Positions 1 through 4,870 of a stretch of 64,000 nucleotides of DNA are shown one piece after another. Source of the DNA: Rhodanobacter sp. DHG33. Lineage in GTDB: Bacteria; Pseudomonadota; Gammaproteobacteria; Xanthomonadales; Rhodanobacteraceae. Below the pieces are notes generated by a model. It was not told where the DNA came from, did no database searches, and worked only from the letters and a program-made list of their open reading frames with translations. Position 1 is the stretch's first letter. The number at the start of each line of letters is the position of its first letter. The stretch spans positions 1 through 64,000 of the forward strand of contig NZ_JACYXM010000002.1 of NCBI RefSeq assembly GCF_014843005.1, written 5' to 3'. The position numbers were made by a program, and so were the translations under genes.

Positions 1-106
1 GGTAACGTTCGATATGGCTCTGCTTCATGCTGTTCCTCGAATGTCCGACGCGCCGTATCTTTCCAGCACTCCTTACACCGCTCCCCGCGGTGGCTATGTT
101 GCTTCC

Positions 107-1378
107 CTAGGATGGAGACTGCAGGCGCATATGGGCTTGCCCCGTAAAACCACAGCGGCGCCCGATAAAACGAGAGAGGGCCATGATGCCAGCATGGATG
201 CGCTCCGGTTCCGTGGCGCTGAATGCAAGTCTTATGCGGTGATCCTGTGTGGCATCGAACGAGAAGAAGGCCATGGGCATCACGATGACACCTTCCTGGG
301 TAGCGCACTCGGTGACGGCTTGAGCATCGAAACGTAGCGGCACGTCGAGGCACAGGAAAAAGCCCCCTTTGGGATGGTTCCAGCAGACGGGTACCCCATT
401 GGCGGGGAAGCACTTGGCCAGTTGCGCGAGCATTGCATCGCGATTGCGCCGACATGCGTCCACTGCGGGACGCAGCCAATCACGTAGGCTGCAGTCGCGC
501 TCCATCAACAGGCCACCGACCATTGCCTGGCATAGCGGACTGGTGTTGACCGTAACAAAGCTCTTGCGCTCCACAATTGCGTCGAACAGCGCAATGCGCA
601 TAGTGCGATTGCCGAATAGCGTCTCGGGTAGCGTTGCAGCCCCGATACGCACCGCAGGTGCGATGGTTTTCGAATAGGTTGAAAGATAGATGACGCAGCC
701 GACTTCGTCGAGCTTGGCCATCGGTGGAATGATGTCGCCTTCGTAGCGGTACATTCCATAGGGGTTGTCCTCCAGCACGACGAGGTGATGGCGCGCGCAT
801 GCGGTAAGAATGGTCTTGCGTTCTTCCAGCGACAGAACTTCCCCAGTGGGATTGTCGAAATCAGGGACGAGGTAGATCGCGCGCGCGCGCCTTTTCTCCG
901 TGGCCAGCTGCTCTATGGCCTTCTCGATCTGGGCCTCGATGCCGACGATGGTGTTGTCCAGCGCGTGCACCTCGACCGCAGTCGCCGCTGCTGCCCCCGT
1001 AATGCCAATATACGTAGGATTACGTACGAGCACTACATCGCCCATCTCGGGGCATAGCTGAGGTAGGCATAATGTGAGTGCCTCTTGGCACCCGGTGGTC
1101 ACGACCGTGCGATCCCCCGCTGTGGGGACACCGTCATCCCGGCTTATCTGCCGAGCAATGAGTTCGTGGATGATGCCCGCCGTGCGCCCGTACTGCCACA
1201 AATTGCTAACGGGTGCCTGACGGCTGAAAGTCGTCATCCAGCGACTGACTGATTCCGCGTCGATACTTTCGAATAGCTGCTTTCCGGGGCGTCCCGCAGC
1301 TAGCGAAATCGCCGCCGGATAATTTTCGGCAACCTCATTAAGGAAATTCATTACGGAAACATTGCCAGTGCCCGCCAT
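107..1378 (-). CDS. HpgT-like (hydroxy)phenylglycine aminotransferase
   Basis: A fold-type I PLP aminotransferase of 423 residues. It would interconvert (4-hydroxy)phenylglyoxylate and (4-hydroxy)phenylglycine using an amino donor. The N-terminal VMNFLNEVAENYPAAISLA, then TGCQEA, NPTYIGITGA, VPDFDNPTG, LEDNPYG, the PLP-lysine motif YSKTIAP (Lys about 237) and VTVNTSPLCQAMV closely resemble the HpgT enzymes of glycopeptide antibiotic clusters, as I remember them, more than general MocR-type transaminases. The start is the second of two adjacent ATGs, 4 nt after AGGAGG; an in-frame TTG at 1411 lacks a leader. It is last in a minus-strand set after a mandelate dehydrogenase and a VOC protein, which supports the phenylglycine role. 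Whether the ring is hydroxylated cannot be told. A 2-aminoadipate-type transaminase is the main alternative. Confidence 0.8.
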   Translation of the reverse strand: MAGTGNVSVMNFLNEVAENYPAAISLAAGRPGKQLFESIDAESVSRWMTTFSRQAPVSNLWQYGRTAGIIHELIARQISRDDGVPTAGDRTVVTTGCQEALTLCLPQLCPEMGDVVLVRNPTYIGITGAAAATAVEVHALDNTIVGIEAQIEKAIEQLATEKRRARAIYLVPDFDNPTGEVLSLEERKTILTACARHHLVVLEDNPYGMYRYEGDIIPPMAKLDEVGCVIYLSTYSKTIAPAVRIGAATLPETLFGNRTMRIALFDAIVERKSFVTVNTSPLCQAMVGGLLMERDCSLRDWLRPAVDACRRNRDAMLAQLAKCFPANGVPVCWNHPKGGFFLCLDVPLRFDAQAVTECATQEGVIVMPMAFFSFDATQDHRIRLAFSATEPERIHAGIMALSRFIGRRCGFTGQAHMRLQSPS

Positions 1379-1471
1379 CATTCCTCCTGTGAATCCCACG
1401 GCAATCTCCAATTACTTCGTCTTGCCTCTTCAAAGTGACTGCACCTCACTCCAAGGCATCAGTACAAGACA

Positions 1472-2026
1472 TCAGTATTTGTCGCCCTGTTCGAGCTGGT
1501 CGAACAGCGCTTGCACGTTGCTTTCGAGAAAGCCCTCTTCCCCCTCGCGCTTGATCAACTCGAAACTGAGGCCGGTGTTACCGCAACGCGTGGTAAAGGA
1601 CTGAGTGAGCCCGGGGCCGCGGATGACCTTGGTGTCGAACTGCATGCCTCGGCCGCGCAACGCGCTGACTGTTTTCTCTACATCGTCGACCTCGAGTGCG
1701 ATGTGCGCGACACCGGCCCCGAAATTCTCAATGAGTTGAGCAACCTGCGATTGCGGCTCGGTGCCCTGACAGAGTACGAAGCGTATACCGTTAATTTCCA
1801 TTTCCGCCGAAATCATGCCGGTGTGAGCGCCACGGATATGCCTTCGCCCTTTCAGTTCGAAGCCTAGGATTTTCTCGAATAGGTGGATAGCACTTTCGAG
1901 ATTGTGCACCGCCAGCGCAATATGGTCGATGCGTTTGTACGGAGCTTCAGCAAAGGAGGTGGTAGCCGAATCGGAAGGAGCGATGGATAGTGCGGTGTTA
2001 TTCGTAACGATGTCATCACGTTCCAT
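1472..2026 (-). CDS. Single-domain VOC protein with HPPD/hydroxymandelate synthase-like C-terminus
   Basis: A 184-residue vicinal-oxygen-chelate protein. Likely metal ligands are His35 (RIDHIALAV), His108 (GVAHIALEV) and Glu156 (SFELIKREG), the 2-His-1-Glu set of HPPD and hydroxymandelate synthase. The last 30 residues, including FELIKREGEEGF and the helix NVQALFDQLEQ, resemble the end of HPPD, whose final helix closes the active site. Known HPPD and HmaS are about 350 residues with a second, non-catalytic VOC half that is missing here. The 48-residue spacing from His108 to Glu156 is shorter than in HPPD and nearer that of methylmalonyl-CoA epimerase. The start has GGAG 7 nt upstream; the longer reading frame to 2089 does not. 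Context between a mandelate dehydrogenase and an HpgT-like enzyme suggests it makes (hydroxy)mandelate from an arylpyruvate. That is inference; an epimerase or lyase is possible. Confidence 0.7.
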   Translation of the reverse strand: MERDDIVTNNTALSIAPSDSATTSFAEAPYKRIDHIALAVHNLESAIHLFEKILGFELKGRRHIRGAHTGMISAEMEINGIRFVLCQGTEPQSQVAQLIENFGAGVAHIALEVDDVEKTVSALRGRGMQFDTKVIRGPGLTQSFTTRCGNTGLSFELIKREGEEGFLESNVQALFDQLEQGDKY

Positions 2027-2331
2027 AGCTCTACTCCATGTGATCGGTTGGTTAACCGAGTAAAGATGCAGAATCTTCAGCTCTAGCAAAACTTAGGTGA
2101 CGCAGGAAATTCCATGAGGACCGCAATTAACACTGGGCTTCATCATCTCCATAAGCGATTGGTTCTGGATCGTGAGATGCTTACAAAAATATGTTCCATC
2201 GGGGCGGTAGTGGGAACGGCCTAGGCCGATTCTTCAAGATCAGGCACCAAGCTTCATTCGAAGTTTCCGACATTGGTGCCACGCCGTCACTTGGCTGCAG
2301 AATAGCGCGGTAGTTAGGCGAAGGGTGGGCA
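2027..2331. other. Intergenic gap inside the phenylglycine-type gene set
   Basis: These 305 bases separate the dehydrogenase gene from the VOC gene. I translated the minus strand to see whether a decayed N-terminal HPPD-like domain was present. I found only short stop-interrupted frames without VOC resemblance. No clear terminator is visible. A second promoter for the VOC gene could sit here but I cannot point to one. Confidence 0.5.
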
Positions 2332-3465
2332 TCATGCGGGCACACCTACCATTATGTGGTCCATGCAGACCTCGTCAAGCGAGGCGCACCCGATTTGTGC
2401 AAGTGTAGTGTCGAGCTGCCAGCGCAGCAGGGCAATGACGCCATCGATGCCAGCCTCGCCCCTGGCTGCCAGTCCGTACAGAAGCGCTCGGCCTAGCATT
2501 ACAGCGTCGGCGCCTAAGGCAAGCGCCTTGACAATGTCCGAGCCGCGCCGGAAGCCACTGTCGATCAAGATCGGTGTGGGCACGGAATTCCGCACGTCTG
2601 ATAGAGCCTCGATGGGGGCGATGCAATCGTCGAGTTGGCGACCACCGTGGTTGGAGAGCACGACGCCGTCCGCCCCCAATCGGATGCAGGCCATGGCGTC
2701 CTCGGCGGTTAGGATACCTTTCACTATCAGGCGGTGCGGCCAGAGATCGCGCAGCCATGTTAGTCCACTCCAGTCGAAGGTGGCGTCCATGCTGCGGTTA
2801 AGCAGGGCTGCTTGGACTTCCGCATTCTCCGGCTCGATATGCAAGAAGTTCGCCAGTTTGGGGGCTCCATGGCGAAGCAGTGCAGTGCCCCAGCGGGGAT
2901 GCGTGAGTCCGTCCCATAGCATGGCGGGTGTTATTCGTAGGGGAAGGCCGAAACGGTTGCGCAAGTCCCGCTCACGTATGCCGTTCTTGACTACGTCGAC
3001 GGTGAGCACGAGGGTTGTGTAATCTGCGGCGCGCGCGCGCCGAACCAGCTGTTCAGCTAGGTGGCGATGGATGATGTACAGCTGGAACCAGTGATCCCCG
3101 TCACTAGCGCGCGCGACCTCTTCGATGCTCGAGCTGGATGCGGTAGAAAGAATAAAAGGAATGCCGTTCCTCGCCGCTGCCTTGGCGAGCACCAGATCGC
3201 CGCGAGGCCACAACAAACCATTAAGGCCCGTCGGGGCAACGACGAAAGGTACGGGGAGGCGCTTGCCGAATAGCCCGCGCGAACTGTCGCGCCGAGCCAC
3301 GTCACGCAGCCGCCTCGGCTTGAAGCGGATCCGTGCAAGCGCCTCACGGTTGTGGCGCAGGCCGCGTTCCTCTTCGGCGCCTCCCTCAAGATAGTCGAAA
3401 ACGAACTGAGGAATACGCCTGCGCGCTGCCTCCCGGTAATCATCCACATTGATCAACGGCTTCAT
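2332..3465 (-). CDS. mdlB: (S)-mandelate dehydrogenase-like FMN alpha-hydroxy acid dehydrogenase
   Basis: A 377-residue FMN-dependent TIM-barrel enzyme. The family oxidises L-2-hydroxy acids; here (S)-mandelate or 4-hydroxymandelate to the aryl glyoxylate. It matches remembered Pseudomonas putida MdlB nearly end to end: NVDDYREAARRR, FDYLEGGAE, PTGLNGLLWP, STASSSSIEEVA, WFQLYIIHR, LRDLWPH, SNHGGRQLD (catalytic His about 273) and LIDSGFRRGSDIVKALALGA. Gly80 sits where mandelate dehydrogenases carry Gly81 and glycolate oxidases carry alanine. The membrane segment of MdlB is replaced by a loop, so it may be soluble. I chose the ATG at 3465 (AAAGGGAAG just upstream, and the family's start) over an upstream ATG at 3501 with no ribosome site. 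It is first in the minus-strand set and divergent from the MbtH-like gene. Lactate oxidation is less likely. Confidence 0.85.
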   Translation of the reverse strand: MKPLINVDDYREAARRRIPQFVFDYLEGGAEEERGLRHNREALARIRFKPRRLRDVARRDSSRGLFGKRLPVPFVVAPTGLNGLLWPRGDLVLAKAAARNGIPFILSTASSSSIEEVARASDGDHWFQLYIIHRHLAEQLVRRARAADYTTLVLTVDVVKNGIRERDLRNRFGLPLRITPAMLWDGLTHPRWGTALLRHGAPKLANFLHIEPENAEVQAALLNRSMDATFDWSGLTWLRDLWPHRLIVKGILTAEDAMACIRLGADGVVLSNHGGRQLDDCIAPIEALSDVRNSVPTPILIDSGFRRGSDIVKALALGADAVMLGRALLYGLAARGEAGIDGVIALLRWQLDTTLAQIGCASLDEVCMDHIMVGVPA

Positions 3466-3568
3466 CACATCCAACTTCCCTTTGGCCAGTCGACGCATCA
3501 TGATTAACTAATGAGATTTTGCTCATCGAAGCTGTCAGAGCATTCCCTAGATACTCGGAGCATGGCGC
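3466..3568. promoter_or_regulatory. Divergent promoter region with small inverted repeat
   Basis: This AT-rich gap lies between the divergent dehydrogenase and MbtH-like genes and must carry the promoters of both. An inverted repeat, ATGAG (3511-3515) and CTCAT (3522-3526) around a 6-nt centre, could be an operator. No convincing -35/-10 pair stands out. Confidence 0.35.
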
Positions 3569-3793
3569 ATGGTCCAATCAATCGAAGAGGTTCAGTCGCA
3601 GTTCCTTGCGCTCGTAAATGGCGAGGGTCAGTATTCCCTGTGGCCGTCCTTCGCCGAAGTGCCCGCAGGATGGAAGATTCGTAACGGTCCTGATAGTCGC
3701 AAAGCATGCCTAGAGTACATAGAGCGGGAGTGGATTGACATACGTCCACTCAGTGTAGTTAAGGCGCTGGAATGCCACGAAGCGGTCTGCTGA
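3569..3793 (+). CDS. MbtH-like protein (NRPS adenylation-domain partner)
   Basis: A 74-residue MbtH-family protein. Such proteins bind NRPS adenylation domains and are needed for their solubility or activity. The family signature is present: NGEGQYSLWP, then VPAGW, CLEYI and EWIDIRP, including the three conserved tryptophans (25, 35, 55). The usual W-T-D is W-I-D. Length is normal. The start has CGGAG 8 nt upstream. No NRPS gene is in the window. The gene is divergent from the mandelate dehydrogenase/VOC/HpgT-like set, which could supply a phenylglycine-type monomer to an NRPS encoded to the left. It is followed by IS remnants, so it may be the right edge of a biosynthetic cluster or a survivor of a decayed one. 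Confidence 0.9.
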   Translation: MVQSIEEVQSQFLALVNGEGQYSLWPSFAEVPAGWKIRNGPDSRKACLEYIEREWIDIRPLSVVKALECHEAVC

Positions 3794-4119: not shown

Positions 4120-4870
4120 GTATGGTCTGATGCTGCCCAGGTGCGTAAGTGGAGCAACGCGATCCCGCCTTGGACCATTCGCATCGCCCAAAGACGCCGC
4201 ACTGTACGTTCACGCCGCCCCAGGAGGGGGCGATGGAATACGTTGCATCCTAAGTGTTGCCGATGGACGACTTGTGGGTGGCGGTGCGTGAATTCCTGAA
4301 TCCCAGAGCCTCCCGCCCCGGCCTGATGCGTTGCTTGGCGCGCCACGGTCTGAATCGCTATCCGGCAGAGGACAAGGATGGGGCCGATGCACCCAGGCCT
4401 TGAAGGGTTGCGCGCCCGGCTTCGCTACCTTTTCGTCGCAACCGGCCACGCCACGCGCTAGGTCTACCTACGAATCTATTATGGCAATCAGCGCAAGCCG
4501 GTAGTGCCGACTTCCTGTGCTGCCTGTGCTGCCTGTGTGCCGCTGTGCCTATGAGGATCATGAAAGTCCTCACCGACAACGACAGCAATTTCACCGGCCG
4601 CTTTACCGCCAAGGGTAAGCAGCCGACCGGGCACCATACCTTCGACAGCGAGTGCGCCTTGCTAGCCATCGAACACCGACTCATCAAGTCGCACCATCTG
4701 CAGGCCAACGGCATAGTCGAGTGCTTCAACGGTCGCATCAGCGATGCCCTAGCCCCCTGGAACGCTACGCAAAGCTCTACAACGACCATTTGCCGCATGT
4801 GCGTTTGGATACCAAATGCCTCGGCAAGTTATGGCGCAATGGCGATGGGAACACCATGATCTCTTTGTCA
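4120..4870 (+). pseudogene. Decayed IS481-family transposase
   Basis: Pieces of one IS481-type transposase appear in order across several frames: QVRKWSNAIP near 4137, then DHSHRPKTPHCTFTP, then LPMDDLWVAVREFLNP with RCLARHGL (about 4260-4350), then the DDE core VLTDNDSNFTGRF, FDSECALLAIEHRLIKS and ANGIVECFNGRISDAL (about 4569-4755). Stops and frame changes separate them, so no transposase can be made. The catalytic Asp of TDN is still readable, and the final Glu is intact in VECFNGR. This is an old insertion beside the biosynthetic genes. Exact ends and terminal repeats could not be fixed by eye. Confidence 0.8.

Follow-up and report, generated by a model that had tools for sequence, protein, structure and literature searches.

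The first 64,000 nucleotides of contig NZ_JACYXM010000002.1 from Rhodanobacter sp. DHG33 (the window; G000:C22:1-64000 in our numbering) are the left end of a contig of 743 kb, part of a draft genome of 43 contigs and 3.76 Mb. Near their edge they carry a set of genes for an aminotransferase (TA), a small protein of the VOC superfamily (VOC), a mandelate-dehydrogenase-like flavoenzyme (DH) and an MbtH-like protein, which probably makes L-4-hydroxyphenylglycine (Hpg), an uncommon constituent of peptide antibiotics, for a nonribosomal peptide; we put the probability of this reading at about 0.8. It rests on kinship, on conserved active-site residues and on co-occurrence with a particular adenylation code, DILHLGCTFK, lines of evidence that are consistent with one another. 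The original prediction, made from the letters of this DNA, had taken the set to supply (hydroxy)phenylglycine, a proposal which the nonribosomal peptide synthetase (NRPS) setting, the aminotransferase tree and the co-occurrence of the code now support.

In the pathway that we propose, VOC, a one-domain non-haem iron enzyme equivalent to the catalytic half of 4-hydroxymandelate synthase (HmaS), would convert 4-hydroxyphenylpyruvate to 4-hydroxymandelate by decarboxylation and hydroxylation. DH, a flavoenzyme of the mandelate dehydrogenase type, would oxidise this product to 4-hydroxyphenylglyoxylate, and TA, an aminotransferase of the HpgT type, would turn the latter into Hpg. An NRPS adenylation domain with the code DILHLGCTFK would then load Hpg, with MbtH assisting, and an enzyme resembling serine hydroxymethyltransferase (SHMT) may perhaps provide glycine for a glycine-type module, such as the one that we presume, from its code, to be present in the relative G187.

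Gene set

The features at the left end of the window are the following, where the likelier starts of TA, VOC and DH were inferred from the N termini of relatives.

1-28, minus strand: start of an SHMT-like gene, continuing as C4:113-1390 through a 140-base exact overlap
1-211: sequence that recurs where contig C40 of the same genome begins (99.5%), an assembly fork
107-1381 (likelier; 107-1411 by the first start), minus strand: TA, HpgT-like aminotransferase of class I/II (Pfam Aminotran_1_2; tree)
1472-2026 (likelier; 1472-2089 by the first start), minus strand: VOC, one-domain protein like 4-hydroxyphenylpyruvate dioxygenase (HPPD) and HmaS, proposed arylpyruvate dioxygenase (4-hydroxymandelate synthase) (Pfam Glyoxalase)
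2332-3465 (likelier; 2332-3501 by the first start), minus strand: DH, (S)-mandelate-dehydrogenase-like FMN enzyme, proposed to oxidise mandelate to arylglyoxylate (Pfam FMN_dh, 426.7 bits)
3569-3793, plus strand: MbtH-like protein (PF03621, 77.7 bits for a cut-off of 27), divergent from the other three

TA, VOC, DH and the divergent MbtH gene are present as first described, and all four frames are open, without internal stops, in the open reading frame listing of the window. MbtH is the sole PF03621 match in the genome, while the NCBIfam models gave no match for it; in the relatives G101 and G187, MbtH homologs lie some 45-60 kb away from the module. The G+C content of the module is 57.4%, against 67.8% in window bases 5001-64000, and this difference suggests that the module was acquired.

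A one-domain relative of hydroxymandelate synthase

VOC is a single domain of about 184 amino acids, half of HPPD or HmaS (the HmaS candidates compared here have 347-369). The HPPD-like ligands and tail that had been noticed in it are indeed there; that the protein is half-size and has one domain had gone unstated. Among the NCBIfam models, the one that fits VOC best is HPPD (TIGR01263), with 88.1 bits, far below the cut-off of 277, and the strongest part of the match falls on the C-terminal half. A profile of eight VOC orthologs, run against the PDB, ranks HPPDs first (best 86 bits), gives 78.7 bits to 2r5v, named PCZA361.1 in that database, which we take to be an HmaS, and also finds, with lower scores, methylmalonyl-CoA epimerases and glyoxalases. 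The front part of VOC aligns with both VOC-type halves of HPPD, and the tail that bears the Glu only with the C-terminal half (five chains).

Residues were compared in 13 VOC rows (G068 is absent), the genome's own HPPD and four HmaS candidates. The iron ligands His, His and Glu are invariant in all 13 VOC rows. The Asn that this HPPD carries on a pocket strand is replaced by Cys, Val or Ile throughout the VOC rows, and by Ile or Val in all four HmaS candidates; likewise, the Phe of its last helix gives way to Val or Thr (13 of 13) and to Ile (4 of 4), respectively. A change from Phe to Ile at this place steers HPPD towards the chemistry of hydroxymandelate synthase (HMS). The gate of the HMS pocket, as described in passages of PMC3720870, includes Ser221, Val223 and Ile355. 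Since the genome has, elsewhere, a separate full-length HPPD that keeps both the Asn and the Phe, VOC is not the HPPD of tyrosine catabolism.

Orthologs of VOC occur in 8 of 233 genomes of the family, five further matches being long HPPD-like frames, and in seven of the eight, the present genome included, VOC has a TA relative no more than about 3 kb away. Outside the family, the VOC-TA pair is found on four plasmids, of Sinorhizobium, Bradyrhizobium (where TA is split in two frames), Rhizobium and Vibrio. A profile search across the class matched 33 of 369 genomes; among the matches listed outside the present genome, those of G270 (160 amino acids) and G352 (173 amino acids) are short, and the remaining ones are frames of at least 350 amino acids, as in HPPD. 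A 16S-like pattern for Burkholderia matched none of these 369 genomes. A scan of the genome's contigs with the single VOC protein returned nine weak loci, none of which was used.

Two relatives carry degraded versions. In P. sabiae (L105/L115) a VOC gene is accompanied by an Hpg-type adenylation domain minus its key residue, with no match for TA; the stretch seen of Sinorhizobium garamanticum (L109) contains two VOC genes and no annotated NRPS. In Rhizobium sp. T136 about 12 kb separate the end of the NRPS gene (L110 36913-43973) from nifHDKEN, and the plasmid that bears them is typed as conjugative.

Aminotransferase and dehydrogenase

It had been proposed that TA is HpgT-like, and a phylogenetic tree bears this out: ten TAs that accompany VOC fall, together with six actinobacterial relatives, in one clade (support 100/100), apart from nine rows of general and MocR-type aminotransferases. 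Five of the six relatives have, within about 5 kb, either hppD-annotated genes whose products end in HmaS-like tails or a type III polyketide synthase (PKS) gene with enoyl-CoA hydratases, the record of the sixth being unannotated; it is from this gene context, that of Hpg or 3,5-dihydroxyphenylglycine (Dpg) synthesis, that the HpgT label of these relatives was assigned. TA is 36-40% identical to five Streptomyces aminotransferases in such settings, and in Streptomyces angustmyceticus a TA of this type shares a stretch of 5 kb with an alpha-hydroxy acid oxidase and an hppD-annotated gene. The VOC-partner TAs require two changes on the tree, the Vibrio TA being unresolved among them (they group together in 32% of the bootstrap trees).

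The resemblance of DH to MdlB, also noticed beforehand, holds as well. In the PDB, its three top-scoring matches, 6bfg (496.9 bits), 1huv and 2a7n, are all (S)-mandelate dehydrogenases, in a range of 497-440 bits, and behind them come lactate and glycolate oxidases, with the 4-hydroxymandelate oxidase 5zzp at 196.5 bits. The best NCBIfam model is that of L-lactate dehydrogenase, at 323 bits, below its cut-off of 376, and identity to the alpha-hydroxy acid oxidase of S. angustmyceticus is 42.5%. Orthologs of DH (59-72%) are located near VOC and TA in G101, G187, G085 and G071; a tblastn search of plasmids with DH gave 821 records. In Vibrio europaeus the VOC-TA pair is followed by a gene for an Ldh-family oxidoreductase, as if a hydroxy acid required oxidation there too.

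NRPS genes and their adenylation codes

The original prediction placed the peptide synthetase to the left of the window. The reverse complement of window bases 1-140 is identical to the beginning of contig C4. On that contig the SHMT-like gene (426 codons without a stop) is followed by an NRPS frame that stays open over 1690 codons, up to the contig end. This is the gene order of the relatives: DH-VOC-TA-SHMT-NRPS make one run on the same strand in G101, and VOC-TA-SHMT-NRPS are consecutive in G187, where DH is on the opposite strand about 8.4 kb off, behind frames that look, by sight, like insertion sequences. The placement is nonetheless not unique, for C4 shares these 140 bases with C40 as well, so that the assembly graph forks. 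The start of C40 repeats the 211 bases of the window and contains only the end of TA. The join of the window with C4 is likely, the gene order of relatives favouring the window by parsimony only. The TA remnant of C40 adjoins housekeeping genes (thrS and infC, by sight), perhaps in a second or rearranged copy of the cluster.

More widely, NRPS frames adjoin VOC and TA in eight relatives (G101, G187, G078, G068, the three rhizobia and Vibrio), and NRPS pieces stand at contig ends of G085 and G071. In the present genome, the small contigs C4, C8, C10 and C12 have both condensation and adenylation domains, and further adenylation domains stand at the left ends of C38 and C41.

We read the adenylation codes off alignments by rules of our own, not by a predictor, at residue positions that we presume to be the code-bearing ones. 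The reading was restricted to domains with a regular A5 motif, missing one of the two on C4, and two code rows (Brady|14247 and Smel|12536) are unreliable. The code DILHLGCTFK is present in 9 of the 11 genomes or plasmids that have both VOC and TA, and the tenth, Vibrio europaeus, has DIVHLGLVLK. It lies within an NRPS on the very stretch that carries the module in seven cases (G101, G187, G078, G068, Rhizobium sp. T136, Sinorhizobium chiapasense and Bradyrhizobium sp. 187); with Vibrio, an Hpg-type code is thus on the module stretch in 8 of 10, and on another contig in the present genome and in G071. An Hpg-type adenylation domain, one of the features proposed as a check of the supply reading, is found in 10 of the 11 cases, the present genome among them; the reservation is that the genome's own copy sits on C10. 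Among the three VOC-positive cases in which no TA was found, P. sabiae has a decayed copy of the code (first residue Ser), while the adenylation domains read in G094 and Sinorhizobium meliloti include no such code.

A DNA pattern for the code motif LH[L/F]TAGLF matches 6 of the 233 family genomes, five times in true adenylation domains, the match of G085 being outside any such domain. The motif is thus found in adenylation domains of five of the eight VOC-positive genomes and in none of the 225 VOC-negative ones (p about 1e-8, uncorrected for descent). The adenylation domain of G071 (LHLTSG) is missed by the pattern, yet carries the code. As to what the code stands for, section 9 of a 2025 survey (PMC12283262) names DAMHLGCTFK and DILHLGCTFK, among codes of the Leu/Ile/Val type, as accommodating Hpg, with Yoshimura et al. 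2020 as the reference.

Weighing the alternatives

Besides the fork in the assembly graph, several observations weigh against Hpg supply as we propose it. The DILHLGCTFK domain of the genome is on the small contig C10, unjoined to the window. G085 has VOC, TA and DH, without such a code in the 11 of its 37 adenylation-domain matches that were read. The adenylation domains read beside HmaS candidates in Streptomyces NBC_00887 and NBC_00726 have no HLG code; Streptomyces finlayi, the third Streptomyces stretch with an HmaS candidate and readable domains, has DVYHLGLVFK. General libraries name TA otherwise (PdxR, 137 bits for a cut-off of 320; best PDB match 1wst). No DH ortholog was found in the stretches examined of G078, G068, G094 and the rhizobial plasmids. 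Finally, all 13 VOC rows have Val at a position that is Pro in HPPD and Thr in HmaS, and 9 of the 13 have Ala in place of the Gln that precedes the second His in HPPD and the HmaS candidates; because of these positions of its own, VOC is not simply an HmaS.

The broken frames and ambiguous bases on C8, C10 and C12 reflect either decay or poor assembly, and they open the way to another account, compatible with Hpg synthesis, in which the supply genes are intact and the genome's own NRPS is broken, so that no product is made. The TA remnant on C40 would fit with it, as would the degraded relatives (P. sabiae, the split TA of Bradyrhizobium, S. garamanticum). However, the frames of TA, VOC, DH, MbtH and SHMT are whole and that of the NRPS on C4 is open to the contig end, while the broken frames are on small contigs and coincide with ambiguous bases, a pattern expected of misassembled repeats. 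We consider such decay unlikely, though it deserves to be taken seriously, and the genome presumably has a working NRPS.

The same three steps could also act on another aryl group, giving phenylglycine from phenylpyruvate or 4-aminophenylglycine from 4-aminophenylpyruvate. Indeed, in G085 genes for aminodeoxychorismate synthase and a prephenate-dehydrogenase-like protein accompany VOC, and in Bradyrhizobium sp. 187, which has DILHLGCTFK as well, aminodeoxychorismate synthase genes (PabA/B) and a chorismate mutase gene are within 10 kb of the module. The plasmid of S. meliloti T073 encodes a fusion of chorismate mutase with VOC (L107 11680-12462), followed by a prephenate dehydrogenase gene, which points to an arylpyruvate substrate; beside the fusion, in the same NRPS cluster, stand PabB and a class IV aminotransferase. 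The neighbours of the module in relatives therefore argue for arylpyruvate substrates and leave room for 4-amino variants, and Hms accepts several para-substituted phenylpyruvates in the work excerpted from PMC3720870. By sight, without a targeted search, no such aryl-supply genes were recognised beside the module in the first 9 kb of the window, in G101 or in G187, and DILHLGCTFK is linked to Hpg in the survey cited above (PMC12283262). Another aryl group thus appears improbable in the present strain, and we infer Hpg rather than phenylglycine or 4-aminophenylglycine.

Still less can be said for a set that degrades or detoxifies mandelate, unrelated to peptide synthesis, with VOC a glyoxalase or epimerase. 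DH is closest to a catabolic enzyme, and the weak matches of VOC to methylmalonyl-CoA epimerases and glyoxalases go in the same direction; but the NRPS frames beside the module in eight relatives, the NRPS pieces at contig ends of G085 and G071, the HPPD tail and iron triad of VOC and the HpgT-like nature of TA make this very improbable. That TA serves the Dpg pathway, as HpgT does in the META-B clusters discussed below, we reject as scarcely credible: its nearest compared Streptomyces relative, by a slight margin (39.6%), does have a type III PKS and enoyl-CoA hydratases for neighbours, but the genome has no type III PKS match, so that TA hardly serves that pathway unless DpgA is hidden in an assembly gap.

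Relation to known systems

Hpg supply as proposed here has its model in the HmaS-Hmo-HpgT pathway of the producers of glycopeptides and of the calcium-dependent antibiotic. The two share the logic of three steps, an aminotransferase of the HpgT type, MbtH and NRPS genes nearby, and the absence of the HPPD-type Asn and Phe at the pocket positions compared. They differ in that one VOC domain stands here for the two-domain HmaS, a dehydrogenase of the mandelate type for the oxidase Hmo, and in that the host is a proteobacterium. The Pgl pathway to the phenylglycine of pristinamycin has a dehydrogenase, PglA, and proteins resembling pyruvate dehydrogenase, PglB and PglC.

The claim that no system of this make-up had been described went too far. 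Royer et al. 2013 reported genes named TA, 'Hp' and 'DH' in the META-B NRPS clusters of Xanthomonas, with no substrate assigned in the sections concerned (PMC3849588): as here, a transaminase, a 'hypothetical protein' of the VOC superfamily and a 'lactate dehydrogenase' stand beside NRPS and MbtH genes. Compared by gene kinds and setting (X11-5A, XaS3 and Ech703 by description), those genes and the present ones probably belong to the same families, the difference being that the present genome has no type III PKS match. Proteobacterial NRPS products that contain Hpg are known too, the Burkholderia lipopeptides haereogladin, burriogladin, haereoplantin and burrioplantin, as the excerpts of PMC9581180 (also PMC7866175) relate. 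In an engineered cascade, L-AAD, HmaS, (S)-mandelate dehydrogenase and DAPDH yield D-HPG (portions of PMC10991500; HPG cascade also in PMC7431475); there, as would be the case here, a mandelate dehydrogenase oxidises hydroxymandelate, while the cascade is man-made, uses a known HmaS, has a dehydrogenase in place of the transaminase and gives the D-product.

A limited search, which left the primary Burkholderia papers outside its range, found no publication that assigns this gene set to Hpg in proteobacteria. Within that literature, the Hpg assignment, the one-domain synthase and the spread on rhizobial and Vibrio plasmids are new, although they may already be in print. They offer an identity, open to testing, for the TA/Hp/DH genes that the 2013 work had left without a substrate, and connect the code DILHLGCTFK, on genomic grounds, with a supply pathway. 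They also suggest that a half-size enzyme is able to carry out hydroxymandelate synthesis, which would be useful for the engineering of HPG routes and for reading peptide clusters of proteobacteria.

We may go one step further and see in these genes a mobile aryl-glycine cassette, built on a minimal one-domain HmaS of proteobacteria and an HpgT-type TA, with interchangeable dehydrogenases, and carried on rhizobial and Vibrio plasmids and on islands. Such a cassette would explain the unassigned amino acid of the META-B clusters, and those versions that have genes for 4-aminophenylpyruvate would make 4-aminophenylglycine; for this wider picture we see the odds as even.

Further observations

To the right of MbtH, window bases 4545-4859 hold a transposase-like fragment (integrase core, by sight), which fits the edge of an island. 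Genes for diiron hydroxylases of the CmlA type (PF18456) are found around the module in G085 (L045 12407-13996) and G071 (L046 1411-3123), and FtsX-like permease genes, one recognised by Pfam and the others by sight, lie nearby. A gene of the 4'-phosphopantetheinyl transferase family (G000:C38:8299-8574) is located near the NRPS-bearing end of C38.

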